The notes under the pieces were generated by a model. It had not been told where the DNA came from. It saw only the letters and a program-made list of their open reading frames with translations, and searched no databases. Below are positions 53,029 through 61,690 of a stretch of 64,000 nt of DNA, in pieces (positions within the stretch are counted from its first letter, which is position 1; every line of letters begins with the position of its first letter). The stretch comes from an uncultured Eubacteriales bacterium. Its GTDB lineage: Bacteria; Bacillota; Clostridia; Peptostreptococcales; Anaerovoracaceae. The stretch is from contig CADAEH010000003.1 in the NCBI GenBank assembly GCA_902786855.1, positions 1-64,000 of the forward strand, written 5' to 3'. A program made the translations under genes and the position numbers.

Positions 53029-53475
53029 TTACAGTTTGTGTCTCGGCTTTGATGCTTTGATGCGGCTCAGAGCTCTGGACAATTCTGCCTCAACCATGGC
53101 GTGGTCTCTGTTGCTGTTAGCCCTCTTGAGCTCTTCTCTCGCCTTCTCTTCTGCTCTTTTGGCCCTTGCTTCGTCTATGTCTTCAGGTCTCTCTGCAGTA
53201 TCGACGAGTATCATGGTCTCACCGTTTTCTACCTTGAGAAGTCCATCGGACACTACAACAGACTGCCTGCCGCTGAGGCCCATGTCAGCTGCGGCCTCCC
53301 CTGCAGGAACATATTCAAGCGTACCAGGCACAACAGCCATAATGATATTAGAGTGATTGGCAAGGATGCCCACACTCCCCTCAGTTGTCGGAAGTGATAC
53401 GCTCACCGCCTCGCCATCGTATACAGTATGGTCACTGGCCATTATCTGTAATTTGAATGTAGTGTTTTCAGCCAT
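53029..53475 (-). CDS. atpC: F1Fo ATP synthase subunit epsilon
   Basis: Central-stalk subunit of 148 residues: an N-terminal beta sandwich (FKLQIMASDHTVYDGEAVSVSLPTTEGSVGILANHSNIIMAV) and a C-terminal helical hairpin that can inhibit ATP hydrolysis. The length is slightly above the family norm (about 135) because of the Arg/Lys-rich end. Last gene of the operon, two bases after atpD. Confidence 0.93.
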   Translation of the reverse strand: MAENTTFKLQIMASDHTVYDGEAVSVSLPTTEGSVGILANHSNIIMAVVPGTLEYVPAGEAAADMGLSGRQSVVVSDGLLKVENGETMILVDTAERPEDIDEARAKRAEEKAREELKRANSNRDHAMVEAELSRALSRIKASKPRHKL

Positions 53476-53477
53476 GA

Positions 53478-55777
<2,300 letters not shown>

Positions 55778-55795
55778 TGAACCGAATCTTTACTT

Positions 55796-57538
55796 TTACC
55801 TGTTCCACTTACTGCGGAAATCTGCAGATATATCGATGATTTCCTGTTTAAGATCATCATCAAGCACTCCGGTGCTGTCGATCCTGGTACAGATATCCTG
55901 ATGCTCGTTCTCGAACATCTCTGTCAGGTCCTCTGTGAATTGTGTCACATCGTCGACATCGAGGCCTTTCATCGTATGTGCAAGCGCCATCACAAGAGTG
56001 ATGACCTGCTCATGCTGCGATTTAGGATGATACTGTTTCTGTCTCAGCATCCTCATCAGGCCCTGACCGTATTCAAGCTGTGACCTTGTCTGCTCATCAA
56101 GATCTGATGCGAACTGTGTAAAGACTTCCATCTCACGGTACTGCGCGAGATCGATACGCAGAGTACCCGTCGCTTTCTTCATAGCTTTGGTCTGCGCTGC
56201 TCCGCCTACACGGGATACAGACAAGCCGACATTTACAGCCGGTCTCTGTCCTGAGAAGAACAGGTCTGATTCAAGGAATATCTGTCCGTCTGTGATAGAT
56301 ATGATGTTGGTCGGAATGTATGCCGAAACATCTCCTGCCTGAGTCTCAACGATAGGAAGTGCCGTAATGGATCCGCCCCCGATCTTGTCTGACAGTCTTG
56401 CCGCTCTCTCGAGCAGTCTTGAATGCAGATAGAAAACGTCTCCCGGATATGCTTCACGTCCCGGTGACCTGTCGAGCAGAAGTGACAGCGCACGATATGC
56501 GACCGCATGTTTTGACAGATCATCGTATACTATGAGGACGTCCTTGCCCTTGTTCATGAAATACTCTGCCATAGCGCATCCGGCATACGGTGCGATGTAC
56601 TGCAGAGGAGCAGGTTCGCTTGCTCCGGCGGAAACTATGATGGAATGATCCATCGCGCCGTGCTTTATCAGGGTCTGCTGGATCTGGACTACCGACGAGT
56701 TCTTCTGACCGATCGCAACATAGATGCATATGCAGTTCTTGCCGTTCTGGTTGATCATGGCATCTACAGCAATTGCGGTCTTGCCTGTCTGACGGTCTCC
56801 GATGATCAGCTCTCTCTGGCCCCTGCCTATAGGGAACATCGAATCGATCGAGAAGATACCCGTTTCGAGAGGAGTGTCTACCGGTTGTCTGTCTATGATG
56901 GATGGAGCCGGTGTCTCGATAGGCATGTATCCGGAGGCTTCTATCTCTCCGAGTCCGTCGATCGGGACTCCGAGCGAGTCGACTACCCTGCCCAGAAAAC
57001 CTTCTCCGACAGGGACTCCTGCAGTTTTGCCCGTCCTCTTTACGCTTGAGCCTTCAACGACATCATCATCGTCGTTAAAGAGAACGCAGCCGATCTCATC
57101 GGCACGGATATCCTGCACCATGCCTCTGACTCCGTCTGCAAACAGCAGGATCTCTCCGTAAGTAGCCTGATCGAGTCCGCTTACTGTCGCTATTCCGTCA
57201 CCGACTGTCTTGACTTCTCCGACCTGCTCGGCGAGAGCCTCAGGAGTCCATGACTGGATGGTCTCCTTAAGGAGCGGTATGATATTGCCGTTGGTCGCAG
57301 GTACTTTGACCAGAGTATCGCGAAGCTGGCGGAACCTGCCTCCGACTGACCAGTCGTAGATATCATTTCCGACTTCAAGACGGAACCCGCCCGGGAAAGC
57401 ATCCGACTCGATCCACTCGAGCTCTACGCCCTCTCCGTATTTCTTTTCTATAAATTTCTCAAATCTCGCACGCTGCTCATCACTTGGCGCAACAGCCGAG
57501 TATATACGAGCTGCAAGCTTTTTATCATTCATTTCCAT
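55796..57538 (-). CDS. atpA: F1Fo ATP synthase subunit alpha with fused delta C-terminal domain
   Basis: Non-catalytic nucleotide-binding subunit of 580 residues, about 75 longer than normal. Residues about 85-580 are a standard alpha subunit (VGDGIATVSGLDQATYGE; Walker A GDRQTGKTAIAVD; SVGLSVSRVGGAAQ). Residues about 5-80 match the C-terminal domain of the delta (OSCP) subunit: YSAVAPSDEQRARFEKFIEKKYG and, most tellingly, GGFRLEVGNDIYDWSVGGRFRQLRDTL. No separate atpH exists: atpF ends 46 bp upstream, where atpH normally lies. GAGG eight bases before the ATG supports this start. The fusion replaces the delta N-terminal domain, which normally docks on the N-terminus of alpha, by a covalent link. 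Confidence 0.92.
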   Translation of the reverse strand: MEMNDKKLAARIYSAVAPSDEQRARFEKFIEKKYGEGVELEWIESDAFPGGFRLEVGNDIYDWSVGGRFRQLRDTLVKVPATNGNIIPLLKETIQSWTPEALAEQVGEVKTVGDGIATVSGLDQATYGEILLFADGVRGMVQDIRADEIGCVLFNDDDDVVEGSSVKRTGKTAGVPVGEGFLGRVVDSLGVPIDGLGEIEASGYMPIETPAPSIIDRQPVDTPLETGIFSIDSMFPIGRGQRELIIGDRQTGKTAIAVDAMINQNGKNCICIYVAIGQKNSSVVQIQQTLIKHGAMDHSIIVSAGASEPAPLQYIAPYAGCAMAEYFMNKGKDVLIVYDDLSKHAVAYRALSLLLDRSPGREAYPGDVFYLHSRLLERAARLSDKIGGGSITALPIVETQAGDVSAYIPTNIISITDGQIFLESDLFFSGQRPAVNVGLSVSRVGGAAQTKAMKKATGTLRIDLAQYREMEVFTQFASDLDEQTRSQLEYGQGLMRMLRQKQYHPKSQHEQVITLVMALAHTMKGLDVDDVTQFTEDLTEMFENEHQDICTRIDSTGVLDDDLKQEIIDISADFRSKWNR

Positions 57539-57584
57539 ACTAAGAACCTCATTTATTTAACTGAGGAATGAGCTGTGCTGGATC

Positions 57585-58070
57585 CTATTTCTCCTCTGCT
57601 GCATCCAGGAACTGATCGAAGGCATCCGAAGCGGACTGCTCGAGTGTGAGCTTTTCCATTGCATCGGTCACCATTCCTGCGATCTCTTTCTGTGCAGAGG
57701 CAATGATCTCATCTTTCTCTCTTTCAGCTTCTGCTTTGGCATCGCTGATTATCTTCTCAGCGTCTGTCTTGGCCTGAGCCAGCTGGTGGTCGCGCTGATC
57801 AGAGATTTCTTTGTTCATCTTCGCCTTTTCGGCCCTGATCTCTTCATCGAATGATCTGACCTTTTCATCATAAGCATCTCTGTTGCTCTCTGCTTCCTTT
57901 AATGCGTCTGCGGCTCTGCTGTCCATATCAGCATAATAGGCAGTTCTCTTTGCCATAAAGTCCCTGACCGGTTTGTAGAGCAATATGTACAGAGCGCCGA
58001 AGAGGATCGTGAAGTTGAACAGGTGCAGCAATATCTGCTGCCAGTCTATGTTAAGTGGTATACCTGTCAT
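57585..58070 (-). CDS. atpF: F1Fo ATP synthase subunit b
   Basis: Peripheral stalk subunit of 161 residues. One N-terminal membrane helix (LLHLFNFTILFGALYILLYKPVRDFM) is followed by a long charged helix (about 35-150). The C-terminus, where delta normally binds, is AMEKLTLEQSASDAFDQFLDAAEEK. One b gene only, so a homodimer is expected. Confidence 0.93.
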   Translation of the reverse strand: MTGIPLNIDWQQILLHLFNFTILFGALYILLYKPVRDFMAKRTAYYADMDSRAADALKEAESNRDAYDEKVRSFDEEIRAEKAKMNKEISDQRDHQLAQAKTDAEKIISDAKAEAEREKDEIIASAQKEIAGMVTDAMEKLTLEQSASDAFDQFLDAAEEK

Positions 58071-58098
58071 CTCTTATATCTCCATGTACGATCTGTAG

Positions 58099-58476
58099 CT
58101 ATAATACGAATATTATCAGGATTACAACGAGCAGCGCATAGATGATCGCCGTCTCGATAAATACAAGTCCAAGCATGAAATTCGTTCGGATCTTTCCGTC
58201 TGCTTCAGGCTGACGTGAGATACCCTCTGCAGCTTTTCCGCCGGAGATACCCATTCCGATCCCGCCTCCGCATGCTGCCAGTCCGATAGCGATACCCGAA
58301 GCGATAGCCTTGAGTCCTGTCGTATTATCAGCCTCAGCTGCGACCTGCTCGGTCTGTGCCGGTGTACCGGTATCCTGAGTGTCCGCAAAAGCCCCGATAG
58401 TAGCTACGGTACCCATGATCGCGATGATCAGTCCGAGTACCAGTGCGAGTCTTGCCAGTTTCCTTGAATTAGCCAT
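58099..58476 (-). CDS. atpE: F1Fo ATP synthase subunit c with long N-terminal extension
   Basis: Membrane rotor subunit, 125 residues against a usual 70-90. The first 30 residues look like a signal peptide (KLARLALVLGLIIAIMGTVATIGAFA), followed by an acidic linker (TQDTGTPAQTEQVAAEADN) before the two-helix hairpin. The polar loop is RQPEADGKI. The ion-binding Glu is in MLGLVFIETAIIYALL. The Gln that marks Na+-binding c subunits (position 32 in Ilyobacter) is Met here and the Pro at 28 is Gly, so proton coupling is more likely; this comes from alignment by eye. The extension may be cleaved to expose the mature N-terminus. Confidence 0.9.
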   Translation of the reverse strand: MANSRKLARLALVLGLIIAIMGTVATIGAFADTQDTGTPAQTEQVAAEADNTTGLKAIASGIAIGLAACGGGIGMGISGGKAAEGISRQPEADGKIRTNFMLGLVFIETAIIYALLVVILIIFVL

Positions 58477-58498
58477 TTTGTTTTCCTCCGTCAGTATT

Positions 58499-59383
58499 CT
58501 ATGCTGCTGCAGTCTCTTCAGACTGGGCAGTTTCTGCCTTGTTGATGATTTTCTTATCTTTTCTGCGCTTCTTCTCTTTTGGCGGTTTCGGCGTGTTGTC
58601 TGAAACCTGTCCGTAGAAGAGCGATGTCAGCATGGTCAGGACGTATGCCTGAATGAGAGCATGCAGCAGTGTGAACAGCACGCCCACAAGCACCGGCACT
58701 ACGTAGCTCAGCGATGAATAGTAGTAAACCAGTTCAGTTACAAGTGCTCCGGAAAGCAGGGCACCGAACAGTCTGAATGAAAGGGATATCGGCAGTGAAT
58801 ACTCTTTGAGTGTCTTGCCTATTCCCTTCACTCCGTTGCCTGCGATACCGCCCGACATAATGACGAGGTACGAAAGGCATCCCATCATTATTGCTCCGTT
58901 GATGTCCGAAAGCGGAGCCGGAAGAGATATCGATAAGCCTTCCGTCGTGACCGCCTGTACTCCGAAGAGCTCGAACAGAGTACCTGTGAAAATATAGGAA
59001 CCTGCTGCAAATATATATGCACCCAGAAACCCGTTGATCTTTGAATTGCCTTTTGCCATGTTGTCAAACAGGCCGACGACAGTTTCCAGAACAAGCTGGA
59101 ATTTTCCCGGTACCATCGTGAACTTAGGAATGAAAAATATCCTGCAGATAAGCGCGAATACTATCAGGATCCCAGACACGATGACACCTGCCATCAGACC
59201 CGGATTGACTTCCAGGCCAAACAAGCTGACCTTGTTGATATCGTGCAGAACGGCGTCCCGCATCACCTGCTGTATCGTTTCCTCTTCACCGGAACTCCCT
59301 CCGGCCAGGATCGCTCCGAGCATGAATACGAGAGCTATCACAGCAAATATCAATGCCGCTTTTCGTCTCTCCTGCTTTGTCAT
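58499..59383 (-). CDS. atpB: F1Fo ATP synthase subunit a
   Basis: Stator membrane subunit with the ion half-channels, 294 residues from the ATG at 59383 (AGGGAG upstream); a longer frame runs into the leader terminator. Helices are clear; the essential Arg is in LSFRLFGALLSGALV, and LHALIQAYVLTMLTSLFYG is the family ending. A Lys/Arg-rich tail (PPKEKKRRKDKKII) follows. First gene of the operon B-E-F-(delta)A-G-D-C; no atpI precedes it. Confidence 0.93.
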   Translation of the reverse strand: MTKQERRKAALIFAVIALVFMLGAILAGGSSGEEETIQQVMRDAVLHDINKVSLFGLEVNPGLMAGVIVSGILIVFALICRIFFIPKFTMVPGKFQLVLETVVGLFDNMAKGNSKINGFLGAYIFAAGSYIFTGTLFELFGVQAVTTEGLSISLPAPLSDINGAIMMGCLSYLVIMSGGIAGNGVKGIGKTLKEYSLPISLSFRLFGALLSGALVTELVYYYSSLSYVVPVLVGVLFTLLHALIQAYVLTMLTSLFYGQVSDNTPKPPKEKKRRKDKKIINKAETAQSEETAAA

Positions 59384-59406
59384 AAGCAGCACTCCCTTCA
59401 GTCTGC

Positions 59407-59462
59407 AAAAATAAAAGACCATCTCTACTTCGCAGCATCAGCTGCGGTCAGTCGAGGCGGTC
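59407..59462 (-). terminator. Terminator-like hairpin (possible attenuator) in the atp leader
   Basis: Minus-strand GACC-CTC-GCAGC (inner loop TGAT) GCTGC-GAG-GGTC stem followed by TTTTATTTTT, ending 24 bases before the atpB start. Being downstream of the candidate promoter at 59531-59558 and upstream of the first gene, it would have to be read through for expression. Confidence 0.5.
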
Positions 59463-60463: not shown

Positions 60464-61690
60464 TCACGCTCCGAGCAACATCTGGTCGAACTCGAAGAGT
60501 ATGCAGTTGACCTCGTGAATGTTGGTGAATCCGTGCTCTATACAGTATTTGACTATGATATCAAAATGGTTGCTCGGAGAAAGCGACAAGCCTGCCCTTC
60601 TGAGCAGATCAGTTGTTTCATCAAGGTTGAGACCGAGCGCTATAGCGAAAGCGATCGCTGTTTTCTTGGTAGGATTATAGTTCACATTGCTGCGTATCTT
60701 GGAGAACAGCTTTCTGTCGATATTAGCCTTCTTGTATACCTCCGGGTCGGTCATTCCCTTACTGTCGATCATCCTGAAGAGCATCTGCTGGAAAGTCTCT
60801 TCTTTAGTGTTGAGCAGTTTCTCCAGAGACTCATCTATACTCCTCTTTGAATAAAGTGCACCTGTTGTCTCATCAGGGACAATAGATTTCTCACTTTCCA
60901 TACTTTCCGGAAGTGCCATGCCAACACTGTATCCGGTATCAGGATCGGCTTCCTCGTAATGCTTCGGAGCTTCTGTCCTCTCGGCCTTCTCAGCCTTCTC
61001 TTCTCTGTCTCCCTTCCTGCGCAGGAACCTGAATCCGCCACTGGCTTTTTTTCTGACAGGCGGCATCGCTGAACGAGGAGCAGAACGCATCACATCCTCA
61101 TCGATCGGGACTGATGATTCCGGAGCTAAGAACGGCAGAGCTTCGTCAAACACCCTTCGCTTTGCATCAGCATCACATATATATGATCTGATATCAGAAA
61201 ACAGTTCTGATGAAAGCGCGAAAGATTCCTTGTCATATACGACAAGGCTGATGTCCATTTCATGATCGTCCAGGAAATCCGTAAATTCCCTTACCGCGAT
61301 GTCAAGCGCAGCATTCTTGGGAAATCCGTATGTGCCTGTGGAGATAAGCGGAAATGCGATCGATTCGCACTCAAGCCTGACAGCTTCGCGGAGACAGTTC
61401 CGATAGCAATGTGCAACAGTCTCCTTTTCTCCGTGATCGCCGCCGCGCCATGCAGGTCCGACAGTATGAATGATGTATTTTGCATCAAGGTCAAATGCAG
61501 GTGTTACTGCGGCCTGCCCCGGCTCCATATCCCCTATCTTAGCTCTTTCATCAAGCAGAGCTTCCATGCCGGCAGCTTCATAGATTGCCAGATCCGTGCC
61601 CTCTCCGACACCAACATGCGGGTTGGCAGTATTCACTATCGCATCCGCACTTACTCTAGTTATGTCATTTCTGATTATTGAAAGCGGCAT
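60464..61690 (-). CDS. Macro-domain protein with C-terminal helix-turn-helix-like domain, 408 aa
   Basis: Residues 1-170 are a macro domain that binds ADP-ribose or related ligands: DAIVNTANPHVGVGEGTDLAIYEAAG (the usual GGGVDGAIH loop appears as VGEGTDLAIY), YIIHTVGPAWRGG and FPLISTGTYGFPKNAALDIA. A charged linker (about 190-290) is of low complexity (RRKGDREEKAEKAERTEAPKH). Residues about 290-408 are helical and look like an XRE-type helix-turn-helix: TFQQMLFRMIDSKGMTDPEVYKKANIDR, LFSKIRSN, KKTAIAFAIALGLNLDE. It could be a ligand-controlled regulator or an enzyme removing ADP-ribose. Single gene. Confidence 0.75.
   Translation of the reverse strand: MPLSIIRNDITRVSADAIVNTANPHVGVGEGTDLAIYEAAGMEALLDERAKIGDMEPGQAAVTPAFDLDAKYIIHTVGPAWRGGDHGEKETVAHCYRNCLREAVRLECESIAFPLISTGTYGFPKNAALDIAVREFTDFLDDHEMDISLVVYDKESFALSSELFSDIRSYICDADAKRRVFDEALPFLAPESSVPIDEDVMRSAPRSAMPPVRKKASGGFRFLRRKGDREEKAEKAERTEAPKHYEEADPDTGYSVGMALPESMESEKSIVPDETTGALYSKRSIDESLEKLLNTKEETFQQMLFRMIDSKGMTDPEVYKKANIDRKLFSKIRSNVNYNPTKKTAIAFAIALGLNLDETTDLLRRAGLSLSPSNHFDIIVKYCIEHGFTNIHEVNCILFEFDQMLLGA

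Follow-up and report, generated by a model that had tools for sequence, protein, structure and literature searches.

How does an F-type ATP synthase hold its stator when a gene for the delta subunit is missing, and how many peripheral stalks would it then carry? This question is raised by a window of 64,000 nucleotides (the whole stretch analysed here, from contig CADAEH010000003.1 of an uncultured Eubacteriales bacterium), in which a minus-strand ATP synthase operon occupies positions 53029-59422 with the gene order a-c-b-alpha-gamma-beta-epsilon (Table 1). All seven of these subunits, as expected of an F-type enzyme, are encoded in the one operon, a and b by a single gene each; as the initial annotation had stated, no atpH is present within it. 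Instead of a separate two-domain delta subunit there is a C-terminal domain only, fused to alpha. The N-terminal extension of alpha had been put at about 80 residues and likened to this part of delta, which our analysis confirms: the addition comprises about 78 residues, alpha residues 5-76 correspond to positions 100-172 of Pfam OSCP (E 2.4e-9, 37.9 bits, cut-off 22.3), and the TIGR00962 atpA match starts at residue 85. The alpha start codon is the ATG at 57538, with GAGG 8 bases upstream; the upper bound of 57584 proposed earlier includes the b-alpha intergenic gap. Subunit b is matched by the NCBIfam b models below their cut-offs.

Table 1. Features of the ATP synthase operon and of the fused alpha gene (positions in the window).
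Feature	Position	Strand	Basis and remarks
Whole fused deltaCTD-alpha gene	55796-57538	-	580 aa; Pfam OSCP and TIGR00962
Delta/OSCP C-terminal domain, alpha residues 5-76	57311-57526	-	Pfam OSCP; fold match; median dN/dS 0.111
Short linker, alpha residues 77-84	57287-57310	-	Alignments of fused alphas; no in-frame start codon near the junction
Retained alpha N-terminal helix, residues 85-97	57248-57286	-	Helix 86-96 in both AlphaFold2 models; TIGR00962 from residue 85
Subunit b, 161 aa, without delta domain	57585-58070	-	Pfam ATP-synt_B; alignment
Subunit c with signal-peptide-like N-terminal extension	58099-58476	-	Pfam ATP-synt_C at residues 58-121; TIGR01260 above cut-off
Subunit a, divergent, with extra N-terminal hydrophobic segment	58499-59422	-	Pfam ATP-synt_A
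Subunit gamma	54869-55777	-	Pfam ATP-synt, E 3.3e-83
Subunit beta	53478-54872	-	NCBIfam TIGR01039 atpD, 806.7 bits (cut-off 462.85)
Subunit epsilon, both domains	53029-53475	-	Pfam ATP-synt_DE_N and ATP-synt_DE

The claim that delta survives only as a domain of alpha was followed through the whole genome (G000; 2.9 Mb in 62 contigs, 87.4% complete). Its sole OSCP match is the alpha N-terminus, covering positions 99-172 only, and the OSCP profile search of this 87.4% complete assembly found neither a delta N-terminal domain nor an atpH elsewhere. Likewise, the genome holds one atpA above cut-off, the fused alpha itself, and a search of the genome with the short alpha N-terminal peptide returned no match. 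Two adjoining frames of 437 and 580 aa on contig C18 give weak atpA matches and are taken as a putative V/A-type ATPase, judged by size and place.

The fold predicted for the alpha N-terminus matches delta chains as well. AlphaFold2, run on residues 1-110 with 57 fused relatives, yielded strand-helix-strand-strand-strand-helix followed by the alpha N-terminal helix at 86-96 (mean pLDDT 74.1, pTM 0.56, with blocks of 80-91 over residues 11-70). Foldseek returned 1119 PDB matches at E up to 10 and 8 at E up to 0.001; among the 50 matches listed, the first 47 all belong to ATP synthase entries, headed by PS3 6n2y_I (E 5.1e-5, TM 0.53 by query length), Chloroflexus 9itj_S and the engineered PS3 fusion 9jc1_K. 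For the full-length fused alpha the AlphaFold2 model was of low quality (mean pLDDT 66.9, 154 residues under 50) and served solely for its repeat of the delta-domain elements. Furthermore, a profile of 58 fused N-termini placed the engineered chain 9jc1_I (580 aa) first in the PDB (E 1.4e-11), with profile positions 4-110 on 5-115 and thus across the junction; PS3 and Chloroflexus delta came after it, 19 distinct chains altogether.

The deltaCTD-alpha architecture is already published (PMC12229609, 2025). According to that paper, residues 2-104 of Bacillus PS3 delta were removed and the remainder was joined to alpha by a short linker; the resulting deltaDeltaN-alpha FoF1 took on a maximum of three b dimers and three a subunits, with an average of two, about doubled its H+/ATP ratio (5.8 vs 3.0) and needed a lower membrane voltage for ATP synthesis. 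The argument advanced in the same text is that the on-axis delta N-terminal domain restricts ordinary enzymes to one stalk. Triple-stalk molecules of the construct were rare in cryo-EM, its pumping was weaker, and its stalks came off readily in grid preparation (PMC12229609). The window enzyme has the same short-linker joining of the delta C-terminal domain to the alpha N-terminus, and it shares with PS3 9JC1/9JC2 the domain order, the loss of the N-terminal domain and a chain of 580 aa. The PS3 protein, in contrast, was made by design, its linker GGSGGS is about three residues longer than that of the window, and its epsilon C-terminal domain, present in the window, was removed. Acidaminococcus fermentans is named as a natural delta-alpha fusion without the delta N-terminal domain, besides UniProt G4Q3K6 and A0A1I2C5T3 (PMC12229609), and by that description shares this loss with the window; the initial annotation made no reference to this case. 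Apart from PMC12229609, our search of the mainly open-access literature found no paper on a deltaCTD-alpha fusion; new here are its spread, its repeated origin, its intermediates, and the divergent a and c subunits of the window clade.

Other enzymes offer partial likenesses. Two PDB entries, 9itj and 9itk, bear the title Chloroflexus aurantiacus ATP synthase. In their series (9ITJ-9ITU), 6 entries contribute 6 gamma and 12 delta chains, and 18 entries contribute 36 a and 72 b chains, which amounts to two delta per gamma and to two a with four b per entry. From these chain counts alone we take each complex to have two stalks and two a subunits; no paper on this enzyme was found in the open-access literature. 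Its delta is separate and short (157 residues), whereas the delta domain of the window is fused to alpha. N-ATPases, described in PMC5706428 as lacking delta, resemble the window in having a delta-like domain on another subunit, and the window alpha N-terminus indeed matches TIGR03321 at 181-242 (E 0.0034). However, in N-ATPases this domain lies at the end of a long b and the operon begins with beta (cf. the N-ATPase-like loci L061, L062 and L064). Membership of that group was rejected on the scores of alpha (594.3 bits vs 750.5) and beta (601.5 vs 752), both below the alternate-F1F0 cut-offs, on the 161-aa b and on the gene order. The mycobacterial b-delta protein likewise carries delta as part of another subunit (delta/b fusion: PMC5709465), but there it is joined to b, with 445-448 aa in the PDB. 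The initial annotation rightly set the window apart from this plan: its b reaches the cut-off with ATP-synt_B only, and no delta model is among its NCBIfam matches.

The survey of extended alphas and their operons, proposed earlier, extends the arrangement beyond the window. A genus sample of 41 genomes, the window's included, gave an OSCP match in 34, of which 31 consist of the C-terminal part opening an alpha-sized frame and 3 (G005, G013, G037) of a full separate delta; where completeness is at least 90% and contamination at most 5% (n = 15), the fusion is the sole OSCP match in 13 and a separate delta occurs in 2. Among 197 family genomes at ≥80% completeness, classed by match position and frame size, 142 had a match, including 21 C-terminal-domain fusions in 9 genera (four of them, G164, G204, G199 and G230, by frame size alone, the others mapped), 2 full delta-alpha fusions and 3 long b subunits with the domain. 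OSCP matches crossing a stop into b were dismissed; that of G023 in the genus sample, for instance (21-172, with one TAA), proved on the operon map to be an ordinary C-terminal-domain fusion in a 585-aa frame behind b. At class level, 65 of 243 genomes (≥90% complete) matched a query of 100 positions, and mapping gave 18 C-terminal-domain fusions, the window's among them, across 12 families, besides 4 full fusions; because the query was fitted to the window clade, these counts are lower bounds. In four of the 18 (G240, G254, G386, G421) a frame of delta size occurs elsewhere as well. In 299 genomes sampled across the phylum there were 7 matches at E up to 1e-8: 4 fusions, none of them outside the window's class, and 3 frames of delta size, whose genomes do lie outside that class. 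Finally, among the best 80 of 204 relatives in named genome records, 79 are C-terminal-domain fusions and one locus, L143, is cut by a contig end; the titles among these 80 include Mogibacterium sp., Candidatus Crickella, Gallimonas, Avimonoglobus, Christensenellaceae and Lachnospiraceae, and two records are labelled Anaeroplasmataceae and Acholeplasmatales.

Did such a fusion arise once? On a careful tree of 66 alpha sequences the window clade comprises 29 rows, all fused, and beside it stand rows of families f27, f12 and f17, in which delta is separate, fully fused or present as a fused C-terminal domain. The tree needs four changes for the C-terminal-domain fusion (3-4 in bootstrap trees) and six for any fusion. 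A single clade for all C-terminal-domain fusions is rejected (AU p 7e-59), and we therefore claim at least two origins, assuming that a full delta was never regained. This case rests on two loci, L210 and L211, because without them a single clade (window clade plus f27 fusions) is not rejected (p 0.193); their end branches are long (0.53 and 0.56), and the two as one clade are not rejected either (p 0.443).

Candidate intermediates lie close by. Near the window clade are separate or fully fused deltas with shortened N-terminal domains, such as L203 with a 153-aa frame; the separate short deltas of L059, L060 and L203 (frames of 153-160 aa) have a length like that of the 157-aa Chloroflexus delta. 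L057, L058, L194, L197, L198 and L201, in turn, have delta fused to alpha at full length, with much of the delta N-terminal domain retained; three copies of that domain could hardly fit on the axis together. L057 and L058 represent a further independent full fusion inside the ordinary family clade, and in L197 the linker looks short. The alphas of G013 and G005, genus genomes with a separate delta, fall in the ordinary clade, so that the operon of these two genomes is a different one and not the product of a reversal.

Selection acts on the fused domain as well. In 21 fused genes (210 pairs; dN/dS taken on pairs with dS under 1.5), the delta domain has a mean identity of 0.666 and a median dN/dS of 0.111 (31 pairs), the linker and helix 0.745 and 0.099 (68 pairs), and the remainder of alpha 0.815 and 0.059 (48 pairs). 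By these ratios (0.111 vs 0.059) the delta domain is under purifying selection, weaker than that on the catalytic part of alpha.

Given the fusion, the loss of the N-terminal domain, the fold, the conservation and the spread observed here, how many stalks would the enzyme bind? Its alpha would bring its own stalk-binding domain, and because the delta N-terminal domain, which occupies the three-fold axis of ordinary enzymes and restricts them to one stalk, is missing, a b dimer may dock on each of the three fused alphas. Likely, more than one peripheral stalk binds, each with its own a subunit; the ions moved per turn would then be the product of c-ring size and a-subunit number, and ATP could be made at lower ion-motive force. 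The initial annotation had noted that three domain copies per F1 leave a choice between up to three stalks and the use of one domain only. Its question about three stalks was well placed, as the PS3 copy of the arrangement binds up to three, and of its two branches the one with several stalks is the better supported (PMC12229609), though by analogy with that construct. We regard a multi-stalk enzyme with a raised ion/ATP ratio as the likeliest reading and a reasonably probable one; that a natural enzyme assembles like the PS3 construct we infer, with stalk number, a-subunit number and H+/ATP taken over from PS3. Besides the same domain order, the same loss and a near-equal linker length, it is supported by the Chloroflexus chain counts, by the fusion as sole OSCP match in 13 of the 15 best genus genomes, by more than one origin (unless full deltas were regained) and by the purifying selection on the domain. 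An RnfC over its cut-off in the genome is in line with, though no proof of, a low-energy anaerobe. To our knowledge, no stoichiometry is known for any natural fused enzyme. The main rival, which we consider a serious possibility if hardly an even one, holds that the fusion merely replaces a lost anchor, with one b dimer and one a bound, one delta domain used and two idle. The single a and b genes of the operon would suit it, and so would the full-length fusions, whose N-terminal regions indicate that tethering is possible without loss of the axial domain; because of them, several stalks do not necessarily follow from fusion as such. In addition, an ordinary separate delta is used by three genomes assigned to the same genus, and the PS3 enzyme averages two stalks, with triple ones rare and readily detached and with weaker pumping (PMC12229609). 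Against a single stalk, the three sites would be equivalent without the axial domain, and the PS3 construct did fill more than one (PMC12229609).

Two further explanations bear on the fusion itself. A full delta gene might lie in the unassembled part of a genome that is 87.4% complete and split into 62 contigs, yet the 13 of 15 genus genomes at ≥90% completeness in which the fusion is the sole OSCP match make this extremely improbable. Alternatively, as the initial annotation suggested for cleavage, two products could arise, by cleavage or by an internal start, freeing a delta domain or leaving some alpha unfused. A GTG does stand at the junction codon in 11 of 31 fused genes, but the window gene has no in-frame ATG, GTG or TTG in the 47 codons round the junction, nor do 9 others of the 31, and the linker and helix are conserved; two products thus appear very unlikely, and an internal translation start at the junction, with no position common to all, was rejected.

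The divergent a and c subunits, which may or may not bear on stalk number, were compared in their N-termini between 21 window-type loci and the other loci shown. Subunit c has 37-87 residues ahead of its core in all 21, most with a strongly hydrophobic signal-like stretch, vs 2-15 residues in the others, whether these are canonical or carry a fusion but lie outside the clade (among them L210, L211, L218, L219 and L221). In 15 of the 21, a hydrophobic segment is added at the N-terminus of subunit a, ahead of a conserved MRDAVLHE-like stretch; in the remaining 6 it is uncaught, the first Met lying further in or the frame being cut. The window a scores far below the cut-offs of the NCBIfam a models (best 56 bits vs 224), and PDB matches of this subunit to designed SAKe proteins were taken for chance. 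Both N-terminal features mark the window clade and are unseen in fused relatives outside it. As a tentative and rather doubtful extension, the clade may represent a natural enzyme with three peripheral stalks and three a subunits per c-ring. Anaerobic Clostridia would have evolved it repeatedly, as a low-gear machine for which half the usual ion-motive force, or less, suffices to make ATP, and in which the divergent a and the N-terminal segments on a and c would help several a subunits to fit one ring.

If natural fused enzymes are multi-stalk, the ion/ATP ratio would depend on how many a subunits there are in addition to c-ring size, and this would change how ATP yields are calculated in anaerobic bacteria. 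The window clade provides many natural test cases, with relatives bearing an ordinary delta or a full-length fusion for comparison, and such comparisons can test whether stalk number is tied to the delta N-terminal domain.

Two minor observations concern other frames. At L225:6064-8454, behind a fused alpha, gamma and beta share one 797-aa open frame, possibly through an assembly error. In the window, positions 60464-61690 (minus strand) encode a 408-aa protein whose remainder has no Pfam match at E up to 0.001 and whose N-terminus forms a macro domain.
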